DNA of 64,000 bases from Arcuatula senhousia (Eukaryota > Mollusca > Bivalvia > Mytilida > Mytilidae). How positions within the stretch are numbered: the stretch's first letter is position 1; each line of letters starts with the position of its first letter. The stretch is from assembly GCA_963971305.1 (NCBI GenBank), contig OZ020303.1, forward strand, positions 85,537,058-85,601,057. Direction: 5' to 3'. Under the pieces are notes generated by a model. The model worked only from the letters and a program-made list of their open reading frames with translations. It had not been told where the DNA came from and made no database searches. This document shows positions 20,085 to 60,607 of this stretch, piece after piece. Both the position numbers and the translations under genes were made by a program.

Positions 20085-23000
20085 CTGAAATGGTAAAGAC
20101 CGTCATTAAATGGAATGGTTTTATCATGGTATTCAAAAGAAAATGGCTTAAAAAGAATATTAGAAAATCTGTCAAAGTCAAAAATGGCCGGGTTTCGTTT
20201 AACAGGAAGTAGGTAAGCCACATACCTGAAATCATATCCCACATTATGGGACCCCACCCTGATGCTATATACCAAATGTCAAGTGGCTGTGATTAGTAGT
20301 TGCTGAGAAAACTGTTACCAAAATTTCTTGCCCGCCCGCATGCTGCCCGCAGCCTGTCCGCCCGACATTCACCATTTTATAACCCGGATTTTCTCTAGTG
20401 AAATCCTGCCAAATATGGATTGCTTTTTCAAAATTGACTGCAGTTTTTTTAAGATTCACATGTACAGTTTCTGAGAAAAGCTTGACAGAAATGTGTACAG
20501 ACATTAAGGATGTTCGAGGGTGACTTTGAAAGTGATGAGGTTTTGAAATTGATGCCTTAAATCATAAGGGTATAATTTAAAATACAAATTAAGCTAAAAA
20601 TTTTGATAGGTTACCGTACTCGTTTTAAAGATAATTAGAGTTCAAAATTTGGCGGGAAAAGGTTTTCTCTGGTTTTATCATAGCTTTAACATAAGCATTA
20701 TTTAGCTGTTTAAACCTGTGAAATAGTGATTAGAATTTAAAATAAATTTGTAAAACATATATTTATGGTGTAATGAAGACATTACACAAAAGAAAAGTAG
20801 GGGTTACCATGCAAAAATGTTTGCCTTATTTTGATGGAAAACACCCGAGGATTCCGAAAAAATGTCAGAAATCTCAAAATCTGACCCTCCAACATCCTTA
20901 AAGCATTTGTACATATGTAGGGACAGACTGATCAGTTATAATGTTTGCCCTGAAATGTTGTCGCAAAACAAAAACCAAAAGAGTCCTTAAGAATAGTATA
21001 TTAACTTACTCTTTCTAACTTTGGTAAAACTGAATCAACTTCTCTGGTTTTTATTATCACACTTAAATCTTGGGCTTTTAACACTGGCTCCTAAAACAGA
21101 CAAAATTACTACACAATTTAATGGCATAATTTTTAACTGTTTGACATGCATATGTTTTGTCTATTAAAGACTCTATTGAGATGCCCAAGGCCTAATAAAC
21201 TTGATATGGATGAAAAAAAGTTATAAATACATGTACAGATAAATATTCCAAGACAAAAATTCATTTATTTCAAATAAAATCTTATGTAAATCTGTTCTTT
21301 TGCTCTGTTCTATTTTGACAAACTGCTACTTTAAAGTTTTCACACACAACCAATGTAAAGAAATATAAGAAATATTACCAAGTTTTAACATTTACATTTT
21401 TGTAATTTTTTCCTAAAATCTGGACATTGCAAACAATTATGCAAAGTTTTTTAAACAAAGAAAAGAAACAAGTGTGGCCACTAAAAGTATGTCTCGCCTG
21501 CCGGCACCATCGCTAAAATCAACTACCCAAGCTTTCATTTCTTGATATAAACACAAAAAGTGTCAGTATACCTAATAACATATGCCTAGTTATTATACTA
21601 TTCAAGCAATCCATTGTCCACACAAGTATTACAAAAAGTTTTCTGTCTGAAAAAAGACCCAAGTTCACAGAGTCACTGGAGCGTAAAAATGGGGTCTTGG
21701 TCACATGGCATGGTGACAGTTGCGTTGTCCATAACCGCAACTGTCTGTTTACCCAATACCTCAGATGCCTAGCTATTATAACTTTCCAGCAATTCATCTT
21801 CCATAAAAGTCTTACAAAAAAAATTTTCGGCCTGAAAAAGACCTAAGTTCACAGAGTCACTGGAGCGTGAAAGGTCAGGGTCACATAGCATGGTGACAGC
21901 TGCATGGACCATAACCTAAACTGTCTGTATTCGAAATATCAGATGCCTAGCTATTATACTTTTCAAGCAATTCATCGTCCACAAAAGTCTTACAAAAAAG
22001 TTTACGGCCTGAAAAAAGACCTAAGTTCACAGAGTCACTGGAGCGTGAAAATGGGGTCAGGGTCAAACGGCATGGTGACAGTTGCGTAGACCATAACCTG
22101 AACTGTCTGTATACCAAATATCAGATGCCTAGCTATTATACTTTTCAAGCAATTCATCTTCCATAAAAGTCTTACAAAAAAAATTTTCGGCCTGAAAAAG
22201 ACCTAAGTTCACAGAGTCACTGGAGCGTGAAAATGGGGTCAGGGTCACATAGCATGGTGACAGCTGCATGGACCATAACCTAAACTGTCTGTATTCGAAA
22301 TATCAGATGCCTAGCTATTATACTTTTCAAGCAATTCATCGTCCACAAAAGTCTTACAAAAAAGTTTACGGCCTGAAAAAAGACCTAAGTTCATAGAGTC
22401 ACTGGAGCGTGAAAATGGGGTCAGGGTGAAACGGCATGGTGACAGTTGCGTAGACCATAACCTGAACTGTCTGTATACCAAATATCAGATGCCTAGCTAT
22501 TATACTTTTCAAGCAATTCATTGTCCACAAAAGTCTTACAAAAAAGTTTACGACGCCGCCGACGCCACCGCCGTCAAGTAATACCTATGTCTCGCCTTCC
22601 GCGACTATTCGTCGCAGGCGAGACAAAAATTGCCTACAAAAAATCCAGCTATCTGTTGATACATTCAGCTACATTAGAACAAACCTTTAAATGGTCCAGC
22701 CAACTAAACATAACTTCAGCTAACACATTGGCATCCTACTCTGTAGCTAACTCTTTCTACATTAGAACAAACCTTTAAATGATCCAGCCAACTAAACATA
22801 ACTTCAGCTAACAAACCTTTAAATGGTCCAGCCAACTAAACATTACTTCAGCTAACAAACCTTTAAATGATCCAGCCAACTAAACATTACTTCAGCTAAC
22901 ACATTGGCATCCTACTCTGTAGCTAACTCTTTCTACATTAGAACAAACCTTTAAATGGTCCAGCTAACTAAACATAACTTCAGCTAACACATTGGCATCC

Positions 23001-26000
23001 TACTCTGTAGCTAACTCTTTCTACATTAGAACAAACCTTTAAATGATCCAGCCAACTAAACATAACTTCAGCTAACAAACCTTTAAATGGTCCAGCCAAC
23101 TAAACATTACTTCAGCTAACAAACCTTTAAATGATCCAGCCAACTAAACATTACTTCAGCTAACACATTGGCATCCTACTCTGTAGCTAACTCTTTCTAC
23201 ATTAGAACAAACCTTTAAATGGTCCAGCTAACTAAACCTAACTTCAGCTAACACATTGGCATCCTGTTCTGTAGCTAACTCTTTCTACATTAGAACAAAC
23301 CTTTAAATGATCCAGCCAACTAAACATAACTTCAGCTAACAAACCTTTAAATGATCCAGCCAACTAAACATTACTTCAGCTAACAAACCTTTAAATGATC
23401 CAGCCAACTAAACATAACTTCAGCTAACAAACCTTTAAATGATCCAGCCAACTAAACATCACTTCAGCTAACAAACCTTTAAATGATCCAGCCAACTAAA
23501 CCTAACTTCAGCTAACAAACCTTTAAATGATCCAGCCAACTAAACATAACTTCAGCTAACAAACCTTTAAATGGTCCAGCCAACTAAACCTAACTTCAGC
23601 TAACAAACCTTTAAATGGTCCAGCCAACTAAACATAACTTCAGCTAACACATTGGCATCTTGTTCTGTAGCTAACTCTTTCCATGCTGAATCACTCTTGT
23701 TTAATGTTTCCTGCAAGGCATGAAAACTTCATCAAAATCTGATATAGTGAAATAAAAATCAAAAATTTCTATACATAAGATGAAATAATCTGTAAGTTCA
23801 TTTAAAATACAAATAACATAATATGATTAAGGCCTTTTAGCGAGCATCAAAAATCTATACCTTTTAAAAACAAGCAAATCTGTGAGCTAATGCTCACTAG
23901 TGATACCCCCGCTCCCCAAACTATGCCATGCACACAAGTTTAAATACTCGGTAAACAGGAAGAAGTTGACCTAGGAACATAAAATTGGTATACACCATAT
24001 GGGACTATAGGATAAAGCTATATGCAAAATATCAGACCTTTATATCTTGTAGTTGCTGAGAAAACTTTGACGAAAAATTTGCATTCATGTTCACTATGTG
24101 CAAAAATCAAAGTATTTGGTAAACAGGAAGTAGTTGACCTAGGAACATAAAATCGGTATACACCATATGGTACTATAGGAGAAAGCTTTATGCAAAATAT
24201 CAGACCTCTACGTCATGTAGTTGCTTAGAAAACTGTGACGGAAATTTTGAATGTATGTACACTATGTGTACAAACCTAAGTATTCGGTAAACAGGAAGTA
24301 GTTGACCTAGGAACATAAAATTGGTATACACCATATGGGACTATAGGATAAAGCTATACGCAAAATATCAGACCTTTATCTCTTGTAGTTGCTGAGAAAA
24401 CTTTGACAAAAATTTTGCATTCATGTTCACTATGTGCAAAAATCAAAGTTTTCGGTAAACAGGAAGTAGTTGACCTAGGAGCATGAAATCGGTATACACC
24501 ATACGGTAATATAGGAGAAAGCTATACACAAAATATCAGACCTCTGCATCATGTAGTTGCTGAGAAAACTGTGACGGAAATTATGTTACGGACGGACGGA
24601 CGAACGGACGGACGGACGGACAAGGGTAAAACAGTATACCCCCCTCTTCTTCGAAGCGGGGGTATAATAAATCCATGTGCTCGACCGGCTAAGTTTAACA
24701 TAAAGAGGGAACTTTTAAAAAAAGGAATAAGATAGTAGCAAAGTCTGACCCCACCCAACCTAAATCATATGCACTTGAGAAAGTTGTTGTTAGAATATCT
24801 GGGAACAATAACGACTTATTAAAGATTTAATTATTTGTGCAAATAATAAATCCTGTAACATTCTGGGACGACATTAAGCGGGGAAGAAATTATCTATTTT
24901 ATGGATTACGTGACGTCACTTCCTTGTCAGAGTATTTCGTGCTTCTTCAGCAGACCAAAACAACATTCAGATTCTGTCAGGTTTTGTGAGATTTTCGTAA
25001 CAGTGTTTTATTTGAAGCATTGGTAACAGAGGGTACATTAAGAAACCTGGCGGAAAAAACGGTAAAGTAAAAATATCATGCGGGTGATTGAGGAAAGTGA
25101 GTGAAACCCCACAGGATGGGACTCTTCTATCATTTTCAGGTAAGAACCTTTTATTTATTATTATGAGTAGGTTTTATTCAGTAAATTTGTGTATTTCTTT
25201 ATCTTATTTTATCTTACTTAGAATTTAACAAAGCTTGGTCAGTATCATGCATTTGGTATGACTAGTCAATGGGACAATGTTGCCAAAAGCTAGCTCGGTA
25301 ATTTCCGGAAAATCGTTTTTCAGCGGAAAAGACCAAATGGTGTTTAAATAAAAATCGGAGTGTAAAAATAAACAAGCGGATGAATGAAGGTTTTATCACT
25401 GTTTTTAAATTTCAATTTTTATATTTTTGCATAACAGATTATGATGTATTTTTTATAAGCCCAGAGGGTTGATTGTTTTACTTGCTCCGTGCCTATTATT
25501 TTATTCATTCCGTAAAAGTAAGCCTGTTCCGGTTTTCTTGTCAGTATATTTCTGGAACATCTCAAAACATGCATAATGCCGTAGGGCTCGCATCTGCGAT
25601 GCTCACTATAAATAGAATTAACAGTTATTTAAGGTTTATTTTGTTATTTTTTTACCATTTCTATGGAAGACCTTGTCAGTACCACTGTTATTGTCACTTT
25701 ATCTGCAATGAATTGATTGGTTACTAAAAATAGGACACAATAATCTCTACTGAAATCGTTTGAGAATAACTGGCTTTAGGTCATGCACCTACATAAAGCC
25801 TGGAAAACAAACCTGGTAAATATCAGCCCTTCTGCCTACTTCTTCTGACACATCAGTAGATCCCAGGGCTTCAGCGATATCATTTGTAGACAGATTGCCC
25901 AGGTCTGTACAGACAACATCGACCTCATCACTCTGTTGTGATAAGACATCCCCCATAGAACTGGTATCATTTTCTGTGTCAGGCTGTTGGTCTAGTTTTA

Positions 26001-29000
26001 ACAGTCTCTCATTAGGAAGGTCTTCCATACAGACACTTTGCTTCCTCGCTAGACATCGGACTTGTTTCTCCAGAGAGGTCTGTGATGTGACTCTAGGTAG
26101 ACCATTGTCTGGGGAGTTACTGATTCTTCTCTCCAGTATTAAGTTGTTACTTGGTGATTTCCTGATCTGTGATAATGATTGGCCTTTACCTGATAGTTCT
26201 AACAATCTCTCGCACACTACATATATAGTCTGAAAGAAGATAAAAGATAATGATTGGCCTCTACCTGATAGTTCTAACAATCTCTCACATACTACATATA
26301 TAATCTGAAAGAAGATAAAAGATAATGATTGGCCTCTACCTGATAGTTCTAACAATCTCTCACACACTACATATATAATCTAAAAGATAAAAGATAATGA
26401 TTGCCCTCTACCTGATAGCTCTAACAATCTCTCACACACAACATATATAATCTAAAAGAAGATAAAAGATAATGATTGGCCTCTACCTGATAGTTCTAAC
26501 AATCTCTCACATACTACATATATAATCTGAAAGAAGATAAAAGATAATGATTGGCCTCTACCTGATAGTTCTAACAATCTCTCACACACTACATATATAA
26601 TCTGAAAGAAGATAAAAGATAATGATTGACCTCTACCTGATAGCTCTAACAATCTCTCACACACTACATATATAATCTGAAAGAAGATAAAAGATAATGA
26701 TTGGCCTCTACCTGATAGCTCTAACAATCTCTCACACACAACATATATTATCTAAAAGAAGATAAAAGATAATGATTGGCCTCTACCTGATAGCTCTAAC
26801 AATCTCTCACATACTACATATATAATCTGAAAGAAGATAAAAGATAATGATTGGCCTCTACCTGATAGCTCTAACAATCTCTCACATACTACATATATAG
26901 TCTGAAAGAAGATAAAAGATAATGATTGGCCTCTACCTGATAGTTCTAACAATCTCTCACACACTACATATATAATCTAAAAGAAGATAAAAGATAATGA
27001 TTGGCCTCTACCTGATAGTTCTAACAATCTCTCACACACTACATATATAATCTAAAAGAAGATAAAAGATAATGATTGGCCTCTACCTGATAGCTCTAAC
27101 AATCTCTCACATACTACATATATAGTCTGAAAGAAGATAAAAGATAATGATTGGCCTCTACCTGATAGCTCTAACAATCTCTCACATACTACATATATAG
27201 TCTGAAAGAAGATAAAAGATAATGATTGGCCTCTACCTGATAGTTCTAACAATCTCTCACACACTACATATATAATCTAAAAGATAAAAGATAATGATTG
27301 GCCTCTACCTGATAGCTCTAACAATCTCTCACACACTACATATATAATCTAAAAGAAGATAAAAGATAATGATTGGCCTCTACCTGATAGCTCTAACAAT
27401 CTCTCACATACTACATATATAGTCTGAAAGAAGATAAAAGATAATGATTGGCCTCTACCTGATAGCTCTAACAATCTCTCACATACTACATATATAGTCT
27501 GAAAGAAGATAAAAGATAATGATTGGCCTCTACCTGATAGTTCTAACAATCTCTCACACACTACATATATAATCTAAAAGATAAAAGATAATGATTGGCC
27601 TCTACCTGATAGCTCTAACAATCTCTCACACACTACATATATAATCTAAAAGAAGATAAAAGATAATGATTGGCCTCTACCTGATAGCTCTAACAATCTC
27701 TCACATACTACATATATAGTCTGAAAGAAGATAAAAGATAATGATTGGCCTTTACCTAATAGCTCTAACAACCTCTCACATACTACATATATAATCTAAA
27801 AGAAGATAAAAGATAATGATTGGCCTCTACCTGATAGCTCTAACAATCTCTCACACACTACATATATAATCTAAAAGAAGATAAAAGATAATGATTGGCC
27901 TTTACCTAATAGCTCTAACAACCTCTCACATACTACATATATAATCTAAAAGAAGATAAAAGATAATGATTGGCCTCTACCTGATAGTTCTAACAATCTC
28001 TCACACACTACATATATAATCTAAAAGAAGATAAAAGATAATGATTGGCCTCTACCTGATAGTTCTAACAATCTCTCACACACTACATATATAATCTAAA
28101 AGAAGATAAAAGATAATGATTGGCCTCTACCTGATAGTTCTAACAACCTCTCACACACTACATATATAATCTAAAAGAAGATAAAAGATAATGATTGGCC
28201 TCTACCTGATAGCTCTAACAATCTCTCACACACTACATATATAATCTGAAAGAAGATAAAAGATAATGATTGGCCTCTACCTGATAGCTCTAACAATCTC
28301 TCACACACTACATATATAATCTGAAAGAAGATAAAAGATAATGATTGGCCTCTACCTGATAGCTCTAACAATCTCTCACATACTACATATATTATCTAGA
28401 GGAAGATAAAAGATAATGATTGGCCTCTACCTGATAGCTCTAACAATCTCTCACATACTACATATATAATCTGAAAGAAGATAAAAGATAATGATTGGCC
28501 TCTACCTGATAGCTCTAACAATCTCTCACACACTACATATATAATCTAAAAGAAGATAAAAGATAATGATTGGCCTCTACCTGATAGTTCTAACAATCTC
28601 TCACACACTACATATATAATCTGAAAGAAGATAAAAGATAATGATTGGCCTCTACCTGATAGTTCTAACAATCTCTCACACACTACATATATAATCTAAA
28701 AGAAGATAAAAGATAATGATTGGCCTCTACCTGATAGCTCTAACAATCTCTCACACACTACAAATATAATCTGAAAGAAGATAAAAGATAATGATTGGCC
28801 TCTACCTGATAGCTCTAACAATCTCTCACACACTACATATATAATCTGAAAGAAGATAAAAGATAATGATTGACCTCTACCTGATAGTTCTAACAATCTC
28901 TCACACACTACATATATTATCTAGAGGAAGATAAAAGATAATGATTGGCCTCTACCTGATAGCTCTAACAATCTCTCACATACTACATATATAATCTGAA

Positions 29001-50000: not shown

Positions 50001-53000
50001 TGTTTTGTTACACTACTTCCTTGAGTAATGTATACATGTATGTTTAAAAACAATTCATTTTTACTTAGTTTAAGAAGTTAAATTCTGTTTACTTACTTTA
50101 CAAGTGGGATCTCTGACTGAAGAATATGTCCAAAAGACATAATGCTCCATCTCACAATACTTATCCCCCCCATCACCAAACCAAGTTGATTCCAAGAGTA
50201 TGATTTATGATGATTAAATAATTTATAAAGTTTCATGATTCCTTATTATCTTCATGGTAAAGTACCTTCAACCTAAAGGTAAACCTAAGTATACACCCCC
50301 CTTTTTTTCTGTGATCTTTCAACCATGAAGTTGATAAGACAGGTACAGTTTTAGAAAGATTTTTGTTTGTTCATATCCTGATGTATATATGTGTACAAAG
50401 TCTTATGATGAAACCAAACTTCCTTCATGGTAAACTAGCTTCAACTTATAGGTACCTGATTTGGAACAGACGAAAAGACCATAACACTATATGCCCCCCT
50501 ACTTTCGAATTCGTAGATAGGGCGTAAATATATCAGATGACCTTATAACTGACATTAATACCAAAACATACCTCCATTATCCATTAATTGCTGTGGATCA
50601 TATGAAAAACCACTTTTATCAAGACCAAATCCACAGTCAGCATGCTCTCCTGGCTTCTGTATGTTAATAACTGAGGTTATACCCTGTCTGAAATAGTGAG
50701 ATAATTGGCAGTCAGGATGATAAATTAGAAGAATATGACTGATGTGTTGAGCTCTCCCAACTATTAATCCCTATGGGTTTGAGTGTTCTGAGTGGTCAGA
50801 TCCAGCAGTCCTAACTTAAGATTTTAAGTTTGTCAGATGTTGGACCTTCTGGGTCGTTCCAGGTAACTTGAATGATCTCAAATGACATATAATTATGATG
50901 GTTATTATGATTTTGAGATTAAAATGTTGGTTATTGTATATTTGAGATGTTCCCCAACGATTAAATGCTTGAAAATTATCAAAAAATTTTGAAGCATATT
51001 GTGTTCTCGTGATGTAGCTAGGAACAAATTGTTCCTTACTGGTGTGAATGTTCACTGCCGATGGGTTAGGTGTGCCATCACTGTTAGAGCTTCCCAGACA
51101 TACCCAGACAATTGGCAGTCAGCATGTTTTCCTGTCTACTGTATGTTAATGACTGATGTTTTACTTTGTTTGAAATAGTGAGATAATCAAATGGTCAGGC
51201 CATGTCATATCATGACTATGTGGAGGTATCAAATGGTCAGACCATGTCATATCATGACTTTGTAGAGGTATCACATGGTCAGGCCATGTCATATCATGAC
51301 TTAGTGGAGGTATTAAATGGTCAGACCATGTCATATCATGACTTTGATGAGGTATTAAATGATCAGACCATGTCAAATCATGACTTTGTGGAGGTATCAA
51401 ATGGTCAGGCAATGTCATATCATGACTTTGTAGAGGTATCAAATGGTCAGACCATGTCATATCATGACTTTGTAGAGGTATCAAATGGTCAGACCATGTC
51501 ATATCATGACTTAGTTGAGGTATAAAATGGTCAGACCATGTCATATCATGACTTTGTGGAGGTATCAAATGGTCAGACCATGTCATATCATGACTTTGTG
51601 GAGGTATCAAACGGTCAGGCCATGTAATATCATGACTTTGTGGAGGTATCAAATGGTCAGGCCATGTCATATCATGACTTTGTAGAGGTATCACATGGTC
51701 AGGCCATGTCATATCATGACTTAGTGGAGGTATCAAATGGTCAGACCATGTCATATCATGACTTTGTAGAGGTATCAAATGGTCAGACCATGTCATATCA
51801 TGACTTAGTTGAGGTATCAAATGGTCAGGCCATGTCATATCATGACTTAGTTGAGGTATCAAATGGTCAGACCATGTCATATCATGACTTTGTGGAGGTA
51901 TCAAATGGTCAGGCCATGTAATATCATGACTTTGTGGAGGTATCAAATGGTCAGGCCATGTCATATCATGACTTTGTAGAGGTATCACATGGTCAGGCCA
52001 TGTCATATCATGACTTAGTGGAGGTATCAAATGGTCAGACCATGTCATATCATGACTTTGTAGAGGTATCAAATGGTCAGACCATGTCATATCATGACTT
52101 AGTTGAGGTATCAAATGGTCAGGCCATGTCATATCATGACTTAGTTGAGGTATCAAATGGTCAGGCCATGTAATATCATGACTTTGTGGAGGTATCAAAT
52201 GGTCAGACCATGTCATATCATGACTTAGTTGAGGTATCAAATGGTCAGGCCATGTCATATCATGACTTTGTGGAGATATCAAATGGTCAGGCCATGTCAT
52301 ATCATGACTTAGTAGAGGTATCAAATGGTCAGACCATGTCATATCATGACTTAGTTGAGGTATCAAATGGTCAGGCCATGTCATATCATGACTATGTGGA
52401 GGTATCAAATGGTCAGGCCATGTCATATCATGACTTAGTGGAGGTATTAAATGGTCAGACCATGTCATATCATGACTTTGTGGAGGTATTAAATGATCAG
52501 ACCATGTCAAATCATGACTTTGTGGAGGTATCAAATGGTCAGACCATGTCAAATCATGACTTAGTGAAGGTATCAAATGGTCAGACCATGTCATATCATG
52601 ACTTTGTAGAGGTATCAAATGGTCAGACCATGTCATATCATGACTTTGTGGAGGTATCAAATGGTCAGACCATGTCATATCATGACTTTGTGGAGGTATC
52701 AAATGGTCAGACCATGTCATATCATGACTTTGTGGATGCATCAAATGGTCAGACCATGTCATATCATGACTTTGTGGAGGTATCAAATGGTCAGACCATG
52801 TCATATCATGACTTTGTAGAGGTATCAAATGGTCAGACCATGTCATATCATGACTTAGTTGAGGTATAAAATGGTCAGACCATGTCATATCATGACTTTG
52901 TGGAGGTATCAAATGGTCAGACCATGTCATATCATGACTTTGTGGAGGTATCAAACGGTCAGGCCATGTAATATCATGACTTTGTGGAGGTATCAAATGG

Positions 53001-56000
53001 TCAGGCCATGTCATATCATGACTTTGTAGAGGTATCACATGGTCAGGCCATGTCATATCATGACTTAGTGGAGGTATCAAATGGTCAGACCATGTCATAT
53101 CATGACTTTGTAGAGGTATCAAATGGTCAGACCATGTCATATCATGACTTAGTTGAGGTATCAAATGGTCAGGCCATGTCATATCATGACTTAGTTGAGG
53201 TATCAAATGGTCAGACCATGTCATATCATGACTTTGTGGAGGTATCAAATGGTCAGGCCATGTAATATCATGACTTTGTGGAGGTATCAAATGGTCAGGC
53301 CATGTCATATCATGACTTTGTAGAGGTATCACATGGTCAGGCCATGTCATATCATGACTTAGTGGAGGTATCAAATGGTCAGACCATGTCATATCATGAC
53401 TTTGTAGAGGTATCAAATGGTCAGACCATGTCATATCATGACTTAGTTGAGGTATCAAATGGTCAGGCCATGTCATATCATGACTTAGTTGAGGTATCAA
53501 ATGGTCAGGCCATGTAATATCATGACTTTGTCGAGGTATCAAATGGTCAGACCATGTCATATCATGACTTAGTTGAGGTATTAAATGGTCAGGCCATGTC
53601 ATATCATGACTTTGTGGAGATATCAAATGGTCAGGCCATGTCATATCATGACTTAGTAGAGGTATCAAATGGTCAGACCATGTCATATCATGAATTAGTT
53701 GAGGTATCAAATGGTCAGGCCATGTCATATCATGACTATGTGGAGGTATCAAATGGTCAGGCCATGTCATATCATGACTTAGTGGAGGTATTAAATGGTC
53801 AGACCATGTCATATCATGACTTTGTGGAGGTATTAAATGATCAGACCATGTCAAATCATGACTTTGTGGAGGTATCAAATGGTCAGACCATGTCAAATCA
53901 TGACTTAGTGAAGGTATCAAATGGTCAGACCATGTCATATCATGACTTTGTGGAGGTATCAAATGGTCAGACCATGTCATATCATGACTTTGTGGAGGTA
54001 TCAAATGGTCAGACCATGTCATATCATGACTTTGTGGAGGTATCAAATGGTCAGACCATGTCATATCATGACTTTCTGGATGTATCAAATGGTCAGACCA
54101 TGTCATATCATGACTTTGTGGAGGTATTAAATGATCAGACCATGTCATATCATGACTTAGTGAAGGTATCAAATGGTCAGGCCATGTCATATCATGACTT
54201 TGTGGAGGTATCAAATGGTCAGCCCATGTCATATCATGACTTAGTGGAGATATCAAATGGTCAGACCATGTCATATCATGACTTAGTGGAGGTATCAAAT
54301 GGTCAGACCATGTCATATCATGACTTAGTGAAGGTATCAAATGGTCAGACCATGTCATATCATGACTTTGTGGAGGAATCAAATGGTCAGCCCATGTCAT
54401 ATCATGACTTAGTGAAGGTATCAAATGGTCAGACCATGTCAAATCATGACTTTGTGGAGGTATCAAATGGTCAGACCATGTCATATCATGACTTTGTGGA
54501 TGTATCAAATGGTCAGACCATGTCATATCATGACTTTGTGGAGGTATTAAATGATCAGACCATGTCAAATCATGACTTAGTGGAGGTATCAAATGGTCAG
54601 ACCATGTCATATCATGACTTTGTAGAGGTATCACATGGTCAGGCCATGTCATATCATGACTTAGTGGAGGTATCAAATGGTCAGACCATGTCATATCATG
54701 ACTTTGTAGAGGTATCAAATGGTCAGACCATGTCATATCATGACTTAGTTGAGGTATCAAATGGTCAGGCCATGTCATATCATGACTTAGTTGAGGTATC
54801 AAATGGTCAGACCATGTCATATCATGACTTTGTGGAGGTATCAAATGGTCAGGCCATGTAATATCATGACTTTGTGGAGGTATCAAATGGTCAGGCCATG
54901 TCATATCATGACTTTGTAGAGGTATCACATGGTCAGGCCATGTCATATCATGACTTAGTGGAGGTATCAAATGGTCAGACCATGTCATATCATGACTTTG
55001 TAGAGGTATCAAATGGTCAGACCATGTCATATCATGACTTAGTTGAGGTATCAAATGGTCAGGCCATGTCATATCATGACTTAGTTGAGGTATCAAATGG
55101 TCAGGCCATGTAATATCATGACTTTGTCGAGGTATCAAATGGTCAGACCATGTCATATCATGACTTAGTTGAGGTATTAAATGGTCAGGCCATGTCATAT
55201 CATGACTTTGTGGAGATATCAAATGGTCAGGCCATGTCATATCATGACTTAGTAGAGGTATCAAATGGTCAGACCATGTCATATCATGACTTAGTTGAGG
55301 TATCAAATGGTCAGGCCATGTCATATCATGACTATGTGGAGGTATCAAATGGTCAGGCCATGTCATATCATGACTTAGTGGAGGTATTAAATGGTCAGAC
55401 CATGTCATATCATGACTTTGTGGAGGTATTAAATGATCAGACCATGTCAAATCATGACTTTGTGGAGGTATCAAATGGTCAGACCATGTCAAATCATGAC
55501 TTAGTGAAGGTATCAAATGGTCAGACCATGTCATATCATGACTTTGTGGAGGTATCAAATGGTCAGACCATGTCATATCATGACTTTGTGGAGGTATCAA
55601 ATGGTCAGACCATGTCATATCATGACTTTGTGGAGGTATTAAATGATCAGACCATGTCATATCATGACTTAGTGAAGGTATCAAATGGTCAGGCCATGTC
55701 ATATCATGACTTTGTGGAGGTATCAAATGGTCAGCCCATGTCATATCATGACTTAGTGGAGATATCAAATGGTCAGACCATGTCATATCATGACTTAGTG
55801 GAGGTATCAAATGGTCAGACCATGTCATATCATGACTTAGTGAAGGTATCAAATGGTCAGACCATGTCATATCATGACTTTGTGGAGGAATCAAATGGTC
55901 AGCCCATGTCATATCATGACTTAGTGAAGGTATCAAATGGTCAGACCATGTCAAATCATGACTTTGTGGAGGTATCAAATGGTCAGACCATGTCATATCA

Positions 56001-59000
56001 TGACTTTGTGGATGTATCAAATGGTCAGACCATGTCATATCATGACTTTGTGGAGGTATTAAATGATCAGACCATGTCAAATCATGACTTAGTGGAGGTA
56101 TCAAATGGTCAGACCATGTCATATCATGACTTTGTGGAGGTATCAAATGGTCAGACCATGTCATATCATGACTTTGTAGAGGTATTAAATGGTCAGACCA
56201 TGTCATATCATGACTTAAATGAAGAAGTTTTAATAAAGATTTAGTGTTAAATACTTACTCTTTAAACTGTTGCAAAATCTTAAATTTTTCAATGGCTGCA
56301 GAACTAGGTCTGGCCATGGCTAAAATATTGTCTGTCACCCTAAAATGGAAACTACCAACATTAGAATTTTACAGTTCAATTGTACATATGTTTCATGTGT
56401 TTAGTTGCTGTAAATCTGTTTTTTTAAATACTGTAAAAGTAATTATATTGCGAGGTATTTATTTTTAACGGATTTTGCGGTAAATCATTTTTCACGAAAT
56501 TAAATACCTGCGAATGAATTAAATTTTATGAAATGAGTAGAATAATGAGCAGAATTTGTGAAATTAAGTACCCGCAAACTTTGGTGAAATCCTAAAATCA
56601 CGAAAATAAGTATGTGTCATCTATTACATGTAGATGACACAGTACTAATAGTACTGTAAATATGATATTTTACATTTAAAATGTGAAATATCTTAATTGT
56701 TAGTTAACTTGAGCAAACTCTGGAAACAAAATTCAGTTTTAAATTTCTAAATCTTAAAAACTTGTGTCCTTTACCTTTGACCTCAATTTCAATAGGGTTT
56801 TCCTTTCCCCATAAGCTTCATTATAGGCAAGATTTATGAAATCCTATGAGGAAATGCAAAGGTTATGTCCTGGAAAATTCTGATTTCTATCATATCTATA
56901 CTTCCATGCATTTGCAAAAGGGGGACAACAATGATGTTCATTTTATACAAACAAGTTGGTATCAATCTCCATCTTGTTTTTCCCAGTTCTCCCATTCACA
57001 GTATATGTATTTCTTACCAGTTATAATATAATCCATCTATCTCCATCTTATCTTTTTCCCAGTTCTCCCATTCACAGTATATGTATTTCTTACCAGTTAG
57101 AATATAACCCATCTATCTCCATCTTATCTTTTTCCCAGTTCTCCCATTCACAGTATATGTATTTCTTACCAGTTTTAGAATATAATCCATCTATCTCCAT
57201 CTTGTTTTTTTACCCAGTTCTCCCACACACAGTATATGTATTTCTTACCAGTTAGAATATAATCCATCTATCTCCATCTTGTCTTTTTCCCAGTTCTCCC
57301 ATTCACAGTATATGTATTTCTTACCAGTTAGAATATAATCCATCTATCTCCATCTTATCTTTTTCCCAGTTCTCCCATTCAGAGTATATGTATTTCTTAC
57401 CAGTTAGAATATAATCCATTTATCTCCATCTTATCTTTTTCCCAGTTCTCCCACACACATGACACACAGTATATGTATTTCTTACCAGTTTTAGAATATA
57501 ATCCATCTATCTCCATCTTGTTTTTTTACCCAGTTCTCCCACGTACAGTATATATTTCTTACCAGTTAGAATATAATCCATCTATCTCCATCTTATCTTT
57601 TTCCCAGTTCTCCCAGGTACAGTATATATTTCTTACCAGTTAGAATATAACCCATCTATCTCCATCTTATCTTTTTCCCAGTTCTCCCACACACAGTATA
57701 TATTTCTTACCAGTTAGAATATAATCCATCTATCTCCATCTTATCTTTTTCCCAGTTCTCCCATTCACAGTATATGTATTTCTTACCAGTTAGAATATAA
57801 TCCATCTATCTCCATCTTATCTTTTACCCAGTTCTCCCACACACAGTATATATTTCTTACCAGTTTTAGAATATAATCCATCTATCTCCATCTTATCTTT
57901 TTACCCAGTTCTCCCACGTACAGTATATACATCTCTTACCAGTTAGAATATAATCCATCTATCTCCATCTTATCTTTTTCCCAGTTCTCCCACATACAGT
58001 ATATACATCTCTTACCAGTTAGAATATAATCCATCTATCTCCATCTTGTCTTTTTCCCAGTTCTCCCATTCACAGTATATACATTTCTTACCAGTTAGAA
58101 TATAATCCATCTATCTCCATCTTATCTTTTTCCCAGTTCTCCCACGTACAGTATATGTATTTCTTACCAGTTAGAATATAATCCATTTATCTCCATCTTA
58201 TCTTTTTCCCAGTTCTCCCACACACAGTATATATATTTCTTACCAGTTAGAATATAATCCATCTATCTCCATCTTATCTTTTTCCCAGTTCTCCCACATA
58301 CAGTATATATATTTCTTACCAGTTAGAATATAACCCATCTATCTCCATCTTATCTTTTTCCCAGTTCTCCCACACACAGTATATATTTCTTACCAGTTAG
58401 AATATAACCCATCTATCTCCATCTTATTTTTTACCCAGTTCTCCCACACACAGTATATATATTTCTTACCAGTTAGAATATAATCCATCTATCTCCATCT
58501 TATCTTTTACCCAGTTCTCCCACACACAGTATATACATTTCTTACCAGTTAGAATATAATCCATCTATCTCCATCTTATCTTTTTCCCGGTTCTCCCACA
58601 CACAGTATATATATTTCTTACCAGTTAGAATATAATCCATCTATCTCCATCTTATCTTTTTCCCAGTTCTCCCACACACAGTATATATATTTCTTACCAG
58701 TTAGAATATAATCCATCTATCTCCATCTTATCTTTTACCCAGTTCTCCCACACACAGTATATACATTTCTTACCAGTTAGAATATAATCCATCTATCTCC
58801 ATCTTATCTTTTTCCCAGTTCTCCCACACACAGTATATATATTTCTTACCAGTTAGAATATAACCCATCTATCTCCATCTTATTTTTTACCCAGTTCTCC
58901 CACACACAGTATATATATTTCTTACCAGTTAGAATATAATCCATCTATCTCCATCTTATCTTTTACCCAGTTCTCCCACACACAGTATATACATTTCTTA

Positions 59001-60607
59001 CCAGTTAGAATATAACCCATCTATCTCCATCTTATCTTTTTCCCAGTTCTCCCACACACAGTATATATTTCTTACCAGTTAGAATATAATCCATCTATCT
59101 CCATCTTATCTTTTTCCCAGTTCTCCCACGTACAGTATATGTATTTCTTACCAGTTAGAATATAATCCATTTATCTCCATCTTATCTTTTTCCCAGTTCT
59201 CCCACACACAGTATATATATTTCTTACCAGTTAGAATATAATCCATCTATCTCCATCTTATCTTTTTCCCAGTTCTCCCACGTACAGTATATACATCTCT
59301 TACCAGTTAGAATATAATCCATCTATCTCCATCTTATCTTTTTCCCAGTTCTCCCACGTACAGTATATACATCTCTTACCAGTTAGAATATAATCCATCT
59401 ATCTCCATCTTATCTTTTTCCCAGTTCTCCCACGTACAGTATATACATCTCTTACCAGTTAGAATATAATCCATCTATCTCCATCTTATCTTTTTCCCAG
59501 TTCTCCCATTCACAGTATATATATTTCTTACCAGTTAGAATATAATCCATCTATCTCCATCTTATCTTTTTCCCAGTTCTCCCACGTACAGTATATGTAT
59601 TTCTTACCAGTTAGAATATAATCCATTTATCTCCATCTTATCTTTTTCCCAGTTCTCCCACACACAGTATATATATTTCTTACCAGTTAGAATATAATCC
59701 ATCTATCTCCATCTTGTTTTTCCCAGTTCTCCCACGTACAGTATATGTATTTCTTACCAGTTAGAATATAAACCATCTATCTCCATCTTATCTTTTTCCC
59801 AGTTCTCCCACGTACAGTATATATATATTTCTTACCAGTTAGAATATAATCCATCTATCTCCATCTTATCTTTTTCCCAGTTCTCCCATTCACAGTATAT
59901 ATATTTCTTACCAGTTAGAATATAATCCATCTATCTCCATCTTATCTTTTCCCCAGTTCTCCCATTCACAGTATATGTATTTCTTACCAGTTAGAATATA
60001 ATCCATCTATCTCCATCTTGTCTTTTTCCCAGTTCTCCCACACACAGTATATATATTTCTTACCAGTTAGAATATAATCCATCTATCTCCATCTTATCTT
60101 TTCCCCAGTTCTCCCACACACAGTATATATATTTCTTACCAGTTAGAATATAATCCATCTATCTCCATCTTGTCTTTTTCCCAGTTCTCCCACACACAGT
60201 ATATATATTTCTTACCAGTTAGAATATAATCCATCTATCTCCATCTTATCTTTTTACCCAGTTCTCCCACACGTATATATATTTCTTACCAGTTAGAATA
60301 TAATCCATCTATCTCCATCTTATCTTTTTCCCAGTTCTCCCACACACAGTATATATATTTCTTACCAGTTAGAATATAATCCATCTATCTCCATCTTATC
60401 TTTTTCCCAGTTCTCCCATTCATAGTATATATATTTCTTACCAGTTAGAATATAATCCATCTATCTCCATCTTATCTTTTTCCCAATTCTCCCAAGTACA
60501 GTATTTACATTTCTTTCCACCACAGAACAGAGAACATGCTTTCTCATGTGAAATCATTGATCTGGCATGCTCAGAAAATTTACTGTATTTTCCTTTAGGC
60601 TTCGCAC
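19758..60607 (-). CDS. PTPDC1-type dual-specificity protein phosphatase (12 exons, N-terminus outside window)
   Basis: Twelve minus-strand exons (A 60442-60607, B 56259-56339, C 50572-50687, D 48651-48672, E 47531-47637, F 46681-46768, G 44277-44366, H 42396-42495, I 25813-26229, J 23609-23710, K 21010-21090, L 19758-20084) join with consistent phases and GT-AG borders into 564 residues plus stop. The catalytic domain has the WPD-type segment NFGWDDYGVASL and the phosphatase loop HCHAGLGRTG with its nucleophilic Cys and Arg. The remaining exons follow vertebrate PTPDC1 in order (VTDNILAMARPS, QKPGEHADCG, IQTRGQ, RQKHMLHGYEAR, LDHLK). The family has been linked to centrosome and cilium control. 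Introns total about 39 kb, mostly tandem arrays. The first exon(s) lie beyond 60607 and were not found. Confidence 0.92.
20228..20420. repeat. Remnant of a tandem-repeat (pearl-like) element in intron K-L
   Basis: GTTGCTGAGAAAACTGTTAC resembles the monomer of the 23.9 kb element. It is followed by a GCCCGCCCGC/GCCTGTCCGCCCG low-complexity patch like the microsatellite part of those elements. Only one unit and no clear ends are visible. Confidence 0.4.
20505..20900. mobile_element. MITE with TAAGGATGTT-GAGGGT termini in intron K-L
   Basis: The left end TAAGGATGTTCGAGGGT is mirrored at the right end by ACCCTCCAACATCCTTA. The element is about 396 bp and has no coding capacity. The interior TTCAAAATTTGGCGGGAAAA is shared with the 16.7 kb fragment. 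Confidence 0.65.
21010..21090 (-). CDS. PTPDC1-type gene exon K
   Basis: An 81-nt exon lies between CTGTTTTAG and AAAGA|GTAAGT and encodes EPVLKAQDLSVIIKTREVDS then VLPKLER. It opens and closes in phase 0 and corresponds to the KEPVITKEDVD segment of vertebrate PTPDC1. Confidence 0.88.
21480..22630 (+). mobile_element. Helitron-like/pearl-type element, about 182-bp monomers, intact ends
   Basis: The left end TATGTCTCGCCTGCCGGCAC is followed by five to six tandem units of ~178-182 bp (CAGATGCCTAGCTATTATAC at 21762, 21940, 22122, 22304 and 22486), a GCCGCC-type patch, AAGTAATACCTATG and a 3' hairpin (TGTCTCGCCT pairing with AGGCGAGACA). A near-identical relative starts at 63.1 kb, suggesting recent spread. 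It abuts the exon J-derived array. Confidence 0.75.
22660..23608. repeat. Tandem array derived from the 3' end and donor site of exon J
   Basis: Read on the minus strand, units contain GTGTTAGCTGAAGTTATG, then GTTGGCTGGACCATTTAAAG followed by GTTTGTTAG. These are the last codons of exon J (VLAEVM..LDHLK) and its 5' splice site. Short units of about 43 bp and longer ~87-bp units reaching back to the KELATEQ codons alternate irregularly for about 950 bp. Unit sequences vary at few positions (ATGG/ATGA in the K-L-H codons, A/C in CATA). The array directly follows the functional donor at 23608. Confidence 0.85.
23609..23710 (-). CDS. PTPDC1-type gene exon J
   Basis: A 102-nt exon lies between GCCTTGCAG and TTAAAG|GTTTGT and encodes ETLNKSDSAWKELATEQ, then DANVLAEVMFSWLDHLK. 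It is phase 0 at both ends and matches the RDGAWERI to WVEQLK segment of vertebrate PTPDC1. It is taken as the functional copy because only here is the upstream GCCTTGCAG acceptor present and the frame open. Confidence 0.88.
23884..24672 (+). mobile_element. Pearl/CvA-type Helitron-like element: 4 x 168 bp plus (GGAC)n
   Basis: The unit GGTAAACAGGAAGTAGTTGA recurs at 23950, 24118, 24286 and 24454, an exact 168-bp period. It is followed by a GGACGGACGGAC tetranucleotide run at about 24590-24622 and a 3' end ATACCCCCCTCTTCTTCG, AAGCGGGGGTAT. The 5' side carries GATACCCCCGCT, inverted relative to AGCGGGGGTAT. This is a textbook match to the layout of pearl/CvA elements known from oysters, which carry an (ACGG)n microsatellite. 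Confidence 0.8.
24850..25075 (+). repeat. Dispersed repeat related to the interior of the 0.99-2.58 kb element
   Basis: ACGTGACGTCACTTCC, GTCAGAGTATTTCG, TCAGGTTTTGTGAGATTTTC and AACCTGGCGGAAAA follow in the same order as in the 1.67-1.85 kb segment (there ATGACGTCATTTCC ... AACCTGGCAGAAAA). I see no terminal inverted repeats here. Confidence 0.55.
25076..25812. other. Remainder of intron I-J
   Basis: No repeat or exon is recognised. Open frames are short. The right edge is the 5' splice site of exon I. Confidence 0.4.
25813..26229 (-). CDS. PTPDC1-type gene exon I (functional copy next to the 75-bp array)
   Basis: A 417-nt exon (139 codons) lies between TCTTCTTTCAG and ATTTACCAG|GTTTGT. 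It begins TIYVVCERLLELSGKGQSLS, aligned with the PK-IIHLVCKLL segment of vertebrate PTPDC1. It then runs through a low-complexity linker (SNNLILERRISNSPDNGLPR, CMEDLPNERLLK) and ends EEVGRRADIYQ. It is phase 0 at both ends. Its first 57 nt plus acceptor are the template of the large upstream array. It also contains a cryptic internal donor, CTATCAG|GTAAAG. Confidence 0.88.
26230..39297 (-). repeat. 13-kb 75-bp minisatellite built from the acceptor and start of exon I (about 174 units)
   Basis: On the minus strand each unit is an acceptor (TATCTTCTTTCAG or ..TTTTAG), then about 60 nt of exon I (residues IIYVVCERLLELSG-RGQSLS), then directly the next acceptor. The period is 75 bp, with frequent 72-bp units lacking GAA in the pyrimidine tract. 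Both periods keep the frame, so long open stretches of a 25-residue repeat appear. They break wherever CAG is TAG before the splice point. Nearly all units keep the AG. Local groups share variants (CGATAAAAG at 33.0-34.3 kb, TTATCT at 35.4-35.7 kb), showing amplification in blocks. It fills most of the 16-kb intron H-I. Confidence 0.95.
39438..39482 (-). ncRNA. Hammerhead ribozyme motif (family B, copy 1)
   Basis: Minus strand order: stem I AGTGCCT, core CTGATGA, stem II GTCT-TGTAT-AGAC, core GAAA, stem III region ACATGCAT, cleavage-site C, stem I' AGGCGT. Stem II is perfect, stem I pairs over five bases, and both core boxes are intact. Stem III has lost pairing in the middle compared with the expected ACGC/GCGT, so the copy may be weak. 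Confidence 0.65.
39783..39822 (-). ncRNA. Truncated hammerhead motif (family B, copy 2)
   Basis: The core reads TTGATGA instead of CTGATGA. Stem II is GTCT-TGAAT-AGAT, GAAA is intact and AGGCGT follows the cleavage-site C. The 5' strand of stem I is missing because the repeat ends there. Likely inactive. Confidence 0.5.
39826..40210 (+). repeat. Fragment of the TGTCTCGCC Helitron-like family (3' end and body)
   Basis: AAGTAATACCTATGTCTCGC, then a degenerate GCAGGCAAGACA, reproduce the 3' end of the 21.5 kb element. The following GTGGCCAGTAAAGAATGTCC and GGTCAAGGTCACATG pieces resemble a second element's start and body. Strongly eroded. Confidence 0.45.
40328..40373 (+). ncRNA. Hammerhead-like motif (family C, copy 1)
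   Basis: Stem I ATGCT pairs with AGCAT. The core box reads CCGATGA (C in place of the normal U at its second base). Stem II is GAGG-TTACT-CCTT, then GAAA, stem III ATATG/CATAT (palindromic), cleavage-site A. All three helices form, but the core change would be expected to lower or abolish cleavage. Confidence 0.45.
40710..40753 (+). ncRNA. Hammerhead-like motif (family C, copy 2)
   Basis: Same layout as the upstream copy, with a better stem I (TGCTG pairing with CAGCA directly at the core). The core box is again CCGATGA, followed by stem II GAGG/CCTT, GAAA and stem III ATATG/CATAT. Retention of all three stems in both copies, and compensating differences in stem I, argue for a real ribozyme fold in the family. 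Confidence 0.5.
40803..41203 (+). repeat. Eroded copy of the 182-bp-monomer Helitron-like element
   Basis: About two monomers are recognisable (CAAGTGATTCATTTTCCACA, AAAGTCTTACAAAGAAGTTT, GATGCTGAAGGGTAAAAATG). It ends in GAGTAATACCTACGTCTGGC and a broken terminal hairpin (ATAAACAAGACAAAAATG). Compare the intact element at 21.48-22.63 kb. Confidence 0.5.
41204..41469. other. Unassigned part of intron H-I
   Basis: No repeat or exon is recognised between the eroded element and the next tandem-repeat element. Confidence 0.35.
41470..42366 (+). mobile_element. Helitron-like element with 154-163-bp monomers and TTATCCCC hairpin
   Basis: Five units with GTGCCCTTAGGCTACCTATG-type sequence start at about 41521, 41684, 41838, 41992 and 42146. 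The 3' end, ATTATCCCC, then ATGCTTTTGCTAGCGCT, then GGGATAATAA, can form a terminal hairpin. It ends only about 30 bp before the 5' splice site of exon H. The monomer is unrelated to the other families, but the layout is the same. Confidence 0.65.
42396..42495 (-). CDS. PTPDC1-type gene exon H
   Basis: A 100-nt exon lies between GTTTTGCAG and CCAAAG|GTAGGT and encodes GSDSHEFTLQQFLNRQ then KHMLHGYEARRLKYVPK. This is the block conserved with vertebrate PTPDC1 (RQRHLLHGYEARLLKHVPK). It ends in phase 0, so exon I (or an array copy of its start) can join directly. Confidence 0.9.
42496..43730. other. Intron G-H, first part, with an eroded family C repeat
   Basis: A degenerate family C copy lies at about 42995-43255 (CACATGGTCGATATCCTCGG, TACTCCTTGAAATAATG); its ribozyme core is lost. 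Nothing else was recognised. Confidence 0.4.
43731..43892 (+). repeat. 21-bp tandem repeat, about 8 copies, in intron G-H
   Basis: The unit TTCTAATATCTATTACAGTTG repeats with one shortened copy. On the plus strand each unit has an acceptor-like CTATTACAG, but the host gene is on the minus strand. The 21-bp period yields a short open frame (VLISITV repeats) that I do not regard as coding. Confidence 0.8.
43893..44276. other. Remainder of intron G-H
   Basis: AT-rich with a GGGGGGGG run near 43932. No exon or repeat was identified before the exon G donor. Confidence 0.35.
44277..44366 (-). CDS. PTPDC1-type gene exon G
   Basis: A 90-nt exon lies between TCTAATTATAG and GCAATACA|GTATGT and encodes (R)HGAIQTRGQMQVIREFEQ then YLKPFRIIFAI. 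It corresponds to the SIQTRGQL..REF segment just after the phosphatase loop in PTPDC1. The acceptor pyrimidine tract is weak, but phase and homology agree. Confidence 0.87.
44560..44815. other. Unidentified less AT-rich segment with a 73-codon open frame
   Basis: The + strand frame 44571-44792 begins with a non-ATG codon and reads for example GQEMPTGRALGQAPVK. It lies in the intron of a minus-strand gene and resembles nothing I recognise. It may be a fragment of an inserted element. Confidence 0.25.
44925..45160 (-). repeat. Degenerate copies of the exon F-derived repeat
   Basis: TGACAAATGTATTGCATCAT and CCTGACAAAGGTATTG units recur about five to six times, with truncations. They match the 58-bp array at 46.33-46.68 kb, which shows that the array once extended further and was split by the insertion at 45.19-46.33 kb. 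Confidence 0.65.
45190..46330 (-). mobile_element. Family A repeat split by a foldback element (nested insertion)
   Basis: Left of the foldback lies GCAGGCAGGAACCACTTACT, TCAGAACACCTGAGTTCACT (inverse of the family A 3' part). To the right lies TTTTGACACTCAAATGCCCC, GGTGCCTCTTTGC (inverse of its 5' part). The two halves make one minus-strand family A copy, itself sitting inside the exon F-derived array. Confidence 0.6.
45264..46184. mobile_element. Foldback element with about 118-bp inverted arms
   Basis: The sequence from CACAGGCGTTTGGGTCCAGG through CTATATACTATTTCCACAAG to TTCTAAAAATAGA is repeated in inverted order at about 46060-46184 with only a couple of differences. An inner inverted pair (ACCACGGACGGAAGT and ACTTCCGTCCGTGGT) extends the potential stem. 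The high arm identity suggests a recent insertion. No transposase is present. Confidence 0.8.
46331..46680 (-). repeat. 58-bp tandem array derived from the 3' end and donor of exon F
   Basis: Units recur at exactly 58-bp spacing (46339, 46397, 46455, 46513, 46571, 46629), in register with the functional exon copy at 46687. On the minus strand each holds GATGATGCAATAC, TTTGTCAGG, then AAAAGGTCTGTATCA, i.e. the codons DDAI.FVR.K plus the 5' splice site and 20 nt of intron. The period is not a multiple of three, so use of an array donor would shift frame. Confidence 0.9.
46681..46768 (-). CDS. PTPDC1-type gene exon F (phosphatase loop, second half)
   Basis: An 88-nt exon lies between CCCTTTTTCAG and CAAAAG|GTCTGT. 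It completes the P-loop Gly and gives RTGVIIAAYLVFTNRISADD then AIHFVRSK. The loop Arg is the first full codon. The donor GTCTGT is non-consensus, which is notable because an array carrying the same donor follows immediately. Confidence 0.88.
46915..47262 (+). mobile_element. 3' part of a bivalve Helitron-like element in intron E-F
   Basis: TTAGGGGTCATCTAACAACTT resembles the monomer of the 62.3 kb element. CCTTCAGTAGTTTCAGAGGA is a motif common to these monomers. The 3' end, AGCTCACATGAC, ATTTTG, GGTCAGGTGAG, forms a terminal hairpin. The 5' end is missing. Confidence 0.5.
47433..47530 (-). repeat. Two-copy, 93-bp in-frame duplication of the end of exon E with its donor
   Basis: Minus-strand CACAAGGACAAGTAGCCATC, then CATTGCCATGGTGGTCTAGG then TGAGTTTAAC, repeats the end of exon E (VTQGKVAIHCHAGLG) and its 5' splice site 93 bp downstream. 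The intervening sequence has no stop. Use of the downstream donor would insert 31 residues and a second HCHGGLG loop in front of RTG. It looks like the first step of the process that produced the larger arrays. Confidence 0.8.
47531..47637 (-). CDS. PTPDC1-type gene exon E (catalytic cysteine)
   Basis: A 107-nt exon lies between CTTTTACAG and GGTCTTG|GTGAGT and encodes (W)DDYGVASLSTILDMVKV, then IQFAVTQGKVAIHCHAGLG. It holds the general-acid region and the nucleophilic Cys of HCHAGLG; the Arg follows in exon F. The phase fits exons D and F. Confidence 0.92.
47686..47815. repeat. 32-bp tandem repeat, four copies, in intron D-E
   Basis: CTAATGTAAGGCATTAAATT/ACCATCATTTTT repeats at 47686, 47718, 47750 and 47782. 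It is not visibly derived from an exon, although it begins only about 50 bp upstream of the exon E acceptor. Confidence 0.8.
47816..48212. other. Middle of intron D-E
   Basis: AT-rich. Nothing recognised. Confidence 0.35.
48213..48605. mobile_element. MITE with about 80-bp inverted repeats near exon D
   Basis: TTTAAAGTGCAGTTCTATGT, AAGAATCAGGC and AATCATGATTTAAAAGACAC on the left are mirrored at the right as TTTTTTAAATCATGATTCAC, GCCTGATCCTTACATAGAAT, AGCACTTTAA. The length is near 390 bp with no coding capacity. It ends about 45 bp from micro-exon D. Confidence 0.7.
48651..48672 (-). CDS. PTPDC1-type gene micro-exon D (22 nt)
   Basis: A 22-nt segment lies between TTGTTTTCAG and GGATG|GTAAGT. 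It encodes the inside of VYFYNFGW, joining DNG of exon C to DDYG of exon E in exact phase. The peptide is conserved with vertebrate PTPDC1 (IYFYNFGWKDYG), which makes this very small exon credible. Confidence 0.88.
48673..48908. other. Intron C-D, first part
   Basis: No feature recognised. AT-rich intronic sequence. Confidence 0.35.
48909..49220 (-). repeat. Single family B repeat with hammerhead motif
   Basis: GAAATAAAAATGACAACAAA, GTTCCAGACAATAAATTTTG, GCCAAACACTGTATGAATAT and TTAGACAATTTTGAAATTTA follow the same order as in the 39.4 kb dimer. It is one copy only, with intact ribozyme core boxes. Confidence 0.7.
48963..49006 (-). ncRNA. Hammerhead ribozyme motif (family B, best conserved core)
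   Basis: Minus strand: stem I GCGCCT (6 bp with AGGCGT), core CTGATGA, stem II GTCT-TGAAT-AGAC (perfect), core GAAA, stem III AGGC/GTGT (partly paired), cleavage-site C after GT, stem I' AGGCGT. Two of three stems and all core bases are canonical. Stem III is the doubtful element. Confidence 0.7.
49221..50571. other. Remainder of intron C-D
   Basis: A poorly conserved intron repeat, ATGGTAAAGTACCTTCAACC (about 50258) and ATGGTAAACTAGCTTCAACT (about 50430), each followed within 50-70 bp by a C-rich CACCCCCC or GCCCCCC patch, suggests two or three eroded monomers of a tandem-repeat element. No exon was found. Confidence 0.35.
50572..50687 (-). CDS. PTPDC1-type gene exon C
   Basis: A 116-nt exon lies between CACTATTTCAG and TGGAG|GTATGT and encodes QGITSVINIQKPGEHADCGF, then GLDKSGFSYDPQQLMDNG. 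It corresponds to the conserved IINLQRPGEHASCG block of PTPDC1. A decayed duplicate of its 5' half lies 0.45 kb upstream. Confidence 0.92.
51105..51186 (-). pseudogene. Decayed duplicate of the start of exon C
   Basis: Minus-strand CTCACTATTTCAAACAAAGT and TCAGTCATTAACATACAGTA, GCATGCTGACTGCC mirror the acceptor and first ~70 nt of exon C. The acceptor AG has become AA and a stop (CAG TAG) interrupts it. It directly abuts the 42-bp array, so a local duplication of this intron/exon edge preceded or accompanied array growth. Confidence 0.7.
51187..56222. repeat. 5-kb 42-bp minisatellite (about 120 units) with higher-order repeats, in intron B-C
   Basis: The plus-strand unit is about TATCAAATGGTCAGACCATG, TCATATCATGACTTTGTGGA, GG. 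The core ATGGTCAGACCAT and the TCATATCATGA part are near-palindromic. Higher-order blocks are clear: a distinctive AAACGGTCAGG unit recurs after 1,344 bp (32 units) and the TCGAGG unit after 1,596 bp (38 units). Because 42 is divisible by three and stops are rare, one minus-strand frame stays open for 1,681 codons (MTWSDHLIPPQSHD repeats), and plus-strand frames are partly open too. I treat this as satellite, not protein. Confidence 0.93.
56259..56339 (-). CDS. PTPDC1-type gene exon B
   Basis: An 81-nt exon lies between TTCCATTTTAG and TTTAAAGA|GTAAGT and encodes (W)VTDNILAMARPSSAAIE, then KFKILQQFK. The VTDNILAMARPS block is almost identical to vertebrate PTPDC1. The phase fits exon A (W split) and exon C. 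Confidence 0.93.
56340..56967. other. Intron A-B between exon B and the 76-bp array
   Basis: AT-rich. A short repeat of AATTAAATTT..CGAAAT-type motifs around 56.47-56.6 kb and a small TACATGTAGATGACAC inverted patch were the only things noticed. Confidence 0.35.
56968..60441 (-). repeat. 3.5-kb 76-bp array built from the 3' end and donor of exon A (about 45 units)
   Basis: Minus-strand units read GGGAGAACTGGGAAAAAGAT, AAGATGGAGATAGATGGATT, ATATTCTAACTG then GTAAGAAATATA. These are the last codons of exon A (WENWEKDKMEIDGLYSNW) plus its consensus-like 5' splice site and ~20 nt of intron. Almost every unit keeps GTAAGA. Length varies from about 72 to 80 bp in the TA/CA stretch that joins units. 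The array starts exactly at the functional donor and runs away from the exon. Confidence 0.95.
60442..60607 (-). CDS. PTPDC1-type gene exon A (first exon visible)
   Basis: A 166-nt exon lies between GTATTTGTAG and TAACTG|GTAAGA and encodes AKPKGKYSKFSEHARSMISH, then EKACSLFCGGKKCKYCTWEN, then WEKDKMEIDGLYSNW. It matches the KYSQMAERL..CSMACGGRACKY..GVYSSW part of PTPDC1. It opens two bases into a codon, so at least one coding exon lies upstream. The array units reproduce only its 3' part, which identifies this as the functional copy. Confidence 0.9.

Follow-up and report, generated by a model that had tools for sequence, protein, structure and literature searches.

The window, that is, the whole 64-kb stretch of mussel DNA that was analysed, carries on its minus strand a gene with a raw length of 40850 bp. 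Reading frame and splice signals located eleven exons (A to K), and tblastn of a related protein (P0004) a twelfth, J2. When the exons were joined without J2, the top named relative of the resulting protein was PTPDC1 of Mytilus galloprovincialis (69% identity over the query), its identity to the M. californianus protein was 68%, and pieces of exons C, E and F matched the Pfam domain DSPc (E 1.2e-15). Judged by its sequence, the gene is PTPDC1. Among the tblastn matches listed, exons A to I were found with the M. galloprovincialis protein P0002, and exons J, J2 and K with P0004. The native exon junctions are consistent with the Mytilus and related proteins, whose sequences continue uninterrupted across them. 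Among the 120 PTPDC1 relatives listed of 929 found, only two (P0026 and P0029) had an internal repeat, which was serine-rich and lay outside the exon edges that bear the arrays described below.

All features of this gene are given on the minus strand, with a slash marking the exon-intron border. Exons A (60442..60607, 5' end not determined, donor AACTG/GTAAGA), B (56259..56339), C (50572..50687), E (47531..47637, donor CTTG/GTGAGT), F (46681..46768, donor AAAAG/GTCTGT), G (44277..44366), H (42396..42495) and I (25813..26229, acceptor TTTCAG/ACTATA) are each supported by tblastn as well as by the joined frame. For the 22-nt exon D (48651..48672) the tblastn match alone is weak (E 0.80), and the joined frame supports its placement. 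Exon J (23609..23710, donor TTTAAAG/GTTTGT) is based on reading frame and splice signals together with tblastn of P0004, the relative that also matched exon J2 (20998..21090, ends approximate) and the last exon, K, with the stop codon (19758..20084).

Merging overlapping rows of Tandem Repeats Finder (TRF) with a period of at least 20 bp gave 11 arrays in the gene. Together these arrays make up 63% of the raw gene, which collapses from 40850 to 16106 bp when one unit is kept per array. Unit-by-unit alignment revealed that four of the arrays, named here after exons A, F, I and J, begin in exon sequence and cross the exon-intron border. Each unit was scored against the 12 placed exons, read in gene orientation; none of 300 shuffles attained the observed score for A, I or J, and for F a single one of 300 did. 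The comparison covered these four arrays and those with periods of 42, 32 and 21 bp. For the 42-, 32- and 21-bp arrays, 131, 110 and 102 of the 300 shuffles did as well on the gene strand (67, 300 and 165 on the other strand); because shuffles match their exon scores, these arrays were judged not to be exon-derived and were rejected as further exon copies. Running head-to-tail with TRF periods of 76 (A), 58 (F), 75 (I) and 44/88 bp (J), the four exon-derived arrays fit the definition of a minisatellite, for which PMC3618361 states a unit size of about 15-100 bp.

The alignments and shuffles thus bear out, for all four arrays, the claim of an earlier note on this DNA that they are built from the gene's own exon edge, splice site included. 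The unit had been described there as an exon end plus splice site plus about 20 nt of intron, which needs correction for A, where the founder copy is wholly exonic. Its copy numbers of ~45 for A and ~174 for I come close to the 45 donors and 175 acceptors, one per full copy, that we counted beyond the native sites; counted with the native site, there are 2 donors at exon E, 7 at F and 17 at J. In A, I and J the exon-derived portion of the array is almost the same as its exon, while in F it is decayed, which suggests separate births at different times. Viral contigs, searched for exact matches to one piece of the I unit and one of the A unit, yielded none.

The exon A array (56961..60519, TRF) consists of a founder copy, then 45 full copies that each carry GTAAG, and finally a broken last copy. 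At 60518-60443, the founder coincides with the 3' end of exon A; between it and the array unit there are 7 differences in 76 positions. The part of the unit that had passed for 20 nt of intron resembles a stretch further upstream in the exon (17 of 21 nt, a score reached by 4 of 20000 shuffles); this intron-exon likeness may be accidental. The same variant units recur within the array (at 59456, 59380 and 59304, and also at 58926 and 58470), as expected from exchange within it. Intronisation of a duplicated exon end appears the likeliest course at this junction: a 76-nt piece of the exon end would have been duplicated, a donor would have arisen at the very start of the second copy (GGAAAG to GGTAAG), and all sequence past the new donor would have become intron.

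The largest array, at the acceptor of exon I (26171..39302, TRF), holds 175 full copies beyond the exon in this assembly. Its 75-bp unit starts with 16 nt of intron (TTTTATCTTCTTTCAG) and continues through 59 nt of exon I, and the copy in the exon differs from the array consensus at 3 positions. An open frame runs through 96 of the 175 units, while 56 have an in-frame stop at the TAG of the acceptor and 23 are gapped. Counted by distinct variant types, synonymous changes in these units numbered 11 against 7.7 expected, so that conservation of the frame was not significant (P = 0.10). The units also contain a donor-like motif, CAGGTAGAG, which is exact in 168 of 175 and lies 40 nt past the acceptor; most units therefore resemble a potential 40-nt micro-exon.

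At the exon F donor, TRF found a 58-bp array (46326..46711) with seven donors AAAGGTCTGT including the native one. Its unit comprises 31 nt of exon and 27 nt of intron and has drifted further from the exon sequence. TRF and alignment also identified a decayed block of F-type units (44927..45117) farther along this intron. Between the two F-type blocks lies an insert with inverted-repeat arms at 45260-45380 and 46063-46183 (121 nt, 98% complementary). The exon J donor carries an array of mixed period (22669..23649, TRF) with 17 donors AAAGGTTTG including the native one, in which the 44-bp unit combines 39 nt of exon with 5 nt of intron (GTTTG) and the 88-bp form combines 72 nt of exon with 16 nt of intron; the array is the one described before, and its periods, previously put at 43/87 bp, were off by one. 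A fifth junction, the exon E donor, is covered by a two-copy duplication (47432..47575) that is not among the 11 TRF arrays. The copies are spaced 93 bp apart, with a best ungapped stretch of 51 nt at 90%, and the second donor (CTAG/GTGAGT) is reached in frame without a stop. An ungapped scan of the gene at offsets of 20-300, with the best 30 duplications listed, returned it as the highest-scoring two-copy duplication outside the masked arrays, which confirms the two-copy 93-bp version reported earlier.

Other repeats occur in the gene and the window. Intron B contains a 42-bp array of ~120 copies (51186..56216, TRF) which, being not exon-derived, provides an internal control. A gene-strand frame of 1697 codons without a stop runs through it (51164-56254), and we considered it as coding sequence. 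Treating every variant as independent gives an expectation of 8.7 stops, but the copies share ancestry; counted by distinct variant types, the absence of stops is not unusual (0 stop types against 0.8 expected, P = 0.42) and synonymous types are at expectation (4 against 4.1), and the candidate was rejected. A nearly identical 182-bp satellite unit occurs at 21557-22552 and 63188-63998, 41 kb apart; perhaps both lie inside mobile elements. On the plus strand, the open frame 10213-11394, whose cysteine spacing we take to be EGF-like, holds four copies of a 48-bp repeat at 10894-11088, an exonic minisatellite that is not at a junction. Two further open frames, at 3312-4192 on the minus strand and 7386-8570 on the plus strand, resemble reverse-transcriptase fragments.

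The copies in the arrays could have consequences for splicing, and predicted readings differ between the junctions. Use of a later donor in array A would give NW* (W, then a stop) right after the native junction, and with later donors in F and J the sixth and the third codon, respectively, would be a stop. Since the later A, F and J donors run into stops, functional transcripts should depend on the site joined to the exon. At exon I, the first two upstream acceptors would add 25 or 50 codons in frame, and beyond these TAG blocks the reading. The second donor of exon E would add 31 in-frame codons without a stop, repeating the phosphatase signature motif, CX5R; the second signature copy, HCHGGLG, completed by the R of exon F, retains it. 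Against the donor consensus, this second donor (TAGGTGAGT) matches at 7 of 9 positions and the native one at 6 of 9. These predictions touch on a suggestion of the earlier note, namely selection for decoy splice sites. On such a reading, the copies would compete with the native sites, so that some transcripts would end in nonsense-mediated decay or encode longer proteins, with copy number tuning the output. Such a role would also predict what is seen in arrays A and I, where GTAAG is intact in 45/45 copies and AG in 175/175. Also in its favour, later A, F and J donors would hit stops while the E site and the first two upstream I acceptors would be readable, and IFI6 is reported in PMC4526556 to use repeat units as donors. 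However, intact motifs are not exceptional in units that are themselves so uniform. Array A has 57 invariant columns out of 76, and its donor motif is equalled or surpassed in conservation by 27 of the 76 circular shifts. In array I, with 49 of 75 columns invariant, few stretches vary more than the acceptor tract (69 of 75 shifts have variability as low or lower), partly due to gaps of a shorter variant, 17 copies being gapped beside the AG; the donor-like motif of the same units is rather well kept (14 of 75 shifts). Pyrimidine-to-purine variant types were not rarer in the acceptor tract of array I, with 3 types in its 13 columns (21 occurrences) against 4 in the 26 columns elsewhere (18 occurrences). 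Neither in A nor in I does the splice motif stand out by its conservation from the remainder of the unit, so that the suggested selection is unsupported, and early stops past a donor would be expected by chance in AT-rich introns. We therefore regard a decoy function as distinctly unlikely.

To judge the placement of the arrays, we collapsed them and threw their units randomly onto the gene, leaving out wholly exonic positions. All resulting P values are for a single locus that was chosen after the fact for this very feature. For the 11 TRF arrays, four lie at junctions against 1.20 expected (P = 0.023). An in-situ set of seven arrays was also formed, without the element-like 154-, 168- and 182-bp arrays, a class assignment based on their period and on the recurrence of the 182-bp unit at 63188-63998 rather than on an element library; in this set four arrays at junctions compare with 0.55 expected (P = 0.001), the F array and the decayed F block being merged into one. 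With exon E added, the counts become 5 of 8 in the in-situ set (0.67 expected, P = 0.00013) and 5 of 12 for all arrays (1.33 expected, P = 0.006); here E is counted as an event and weaker duplications near 40806-41147 (offsets 148-186) and 50250-50454 (offset 173) are left uncounted, and counting them would raise P. Like the merging of TRF rows into 11 arrays, the omission of the element-like arrays and the fusion of the two F blocks, this treatment of E tilts the figures towards the junction reading. The wholly exonic founder at exon A suggests counting any exon contact as the target, which gives 5 of 8 against 1.15 expected (P = 0.0024) or, for all arrays, 5 of 12 against 1.93 (P = 0.031; P for four or more = 0.11). 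The junction cluster is thus unusual under most versions of random placement; one locus does not establish a genome-wide bias.

We consider it rather probable that the arrays are neutral minisatellites, and that the exon-attached splice site is still the one in use. Founding copies would have come from short tandem duplications nearby, some of which by chance took in an edge of an exon, and slippage or unequal exchange would later have lengthened the arrays. The splice site would be supplied by the copy attached to the exon body, further copies would be transcribed and removed as intron, and the arrays as such would be without a selected role. The exon match, the copy numbers in this assembly, the intact splice dinucleotides of A and I and the effects on reading are seen directly in the sequence; the mutational route, the site in use and the neutrality are inferred from it. 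What chance explains poorly is the placement, as five events were seen where random throws expect ~0.7-1.9 (P = 0.0001 to 0.03). Exon edges may instead be preferred birth sites, at which a factor tied to splice junctions starts tandem duplications more often in this genome; co-transcriptional structures, steps in nucleosome occupancy or composition, and short homologies between exon and intron start are candidates. This is a possibility we entertain tentatively and hold to be doubtful. It gains from the five of eight in-situ duplications that sit on a junction, and from the fact that the top two-copy duplication outside the masked arrays, at exon E, does so too. It loses from the smaller excess once the 154-182-bp arrays and any exon contact are admitted, from the choice of a locus picked for this feature, and from the 42-, 32- and 21-bp arrays, which arose in the same gene without an exon. 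The wider proposition that junctions are preferred minisatellite birth sites throughout the genome in this mussel lineage, by way of a process linked with transcription or splicing, and that the arrays in addition modulate productive splicing by their copy number, strikes us as unlikely. Long, near-identical arrays are hard to assemble, and copy number may be wrong for that general reason; yet inflated or misjoined repeats are a most improbable source of the whole pattern, because point variants, themselves arranged in an internal structure, distinguish the units and because an assembly error would hardly yield four unrelated units each joined to its own exon.

If the junction bias were true, mutagenesis by tandem duplication would be tied to splicing or transcription, and introns would have a route by which to grow. 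Even as a chance cluster under the neutral-duplication explanation, the gene offers a natural series for studying how satellites are seeded from an exon edge, and how the spliceosome finds the correct site when many others are nearly identical to it. The locus is of a known kind, unusual in its scale and in the four or five junctions affected in one gene. The previous statement that no system of this kind has been described fails, as repeats at exon-intron boundaries, the IFI6 donor minisatellite and introns from tandem duplication have all been published. The IFI6 case reportedly involves a single junction and a 12-bp unit. Its primary paper, on a minisatellite with multiple splice donors, is reportedly Turri 1995, and a PNAS paper of 2007 is said to treat human introns that arose from tandem arrays. 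A mollusc case, or several such arrays in one gene, was not found among the matches listed in a search of titles and abstract starts in the open literature, most subscription journals lying outside it.

De Grassi and Ciccarelli (2009) state that repeats at exon-intron boundaries of human paralogs generate novel introns, with 27 intron modifications after manual inspection (PMC2812944). The repeats at the mussel junctions are likewise of minisatellite type, located at exon-intron boundaries, and may yield novel introns. As summarised in that paper, the gene-modifying variable repeats average four units of 30 bp and occur in recently duplicated paralogs (PMC2812944), whereas the mussel arrays reach 175 copies and affect four or five junctions in one gene. 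In common with the minisatellite of IFI6 (6-16, G1P3), arrays A and I present tandem units with intact splice sites at an exon end; two downstream repeat units of IFI6 are stated to be used as donors (PMC4526556), whereas the mussel copies are candidate sites. Tandem duplication and intronisation are both named as routes of intron gain in PMC2891723 and PMC3443670. As in the tandem-duplication route outlined there, an exonic stretch may have been duplicated in the mussel gene and one copy may have become intron, for which exon A provides the best fit. In the cases put forward in those two sources the new intron arises between two copies, whereas in the mussel gene existing introns were apparently extended and duplication continued into long arrays.
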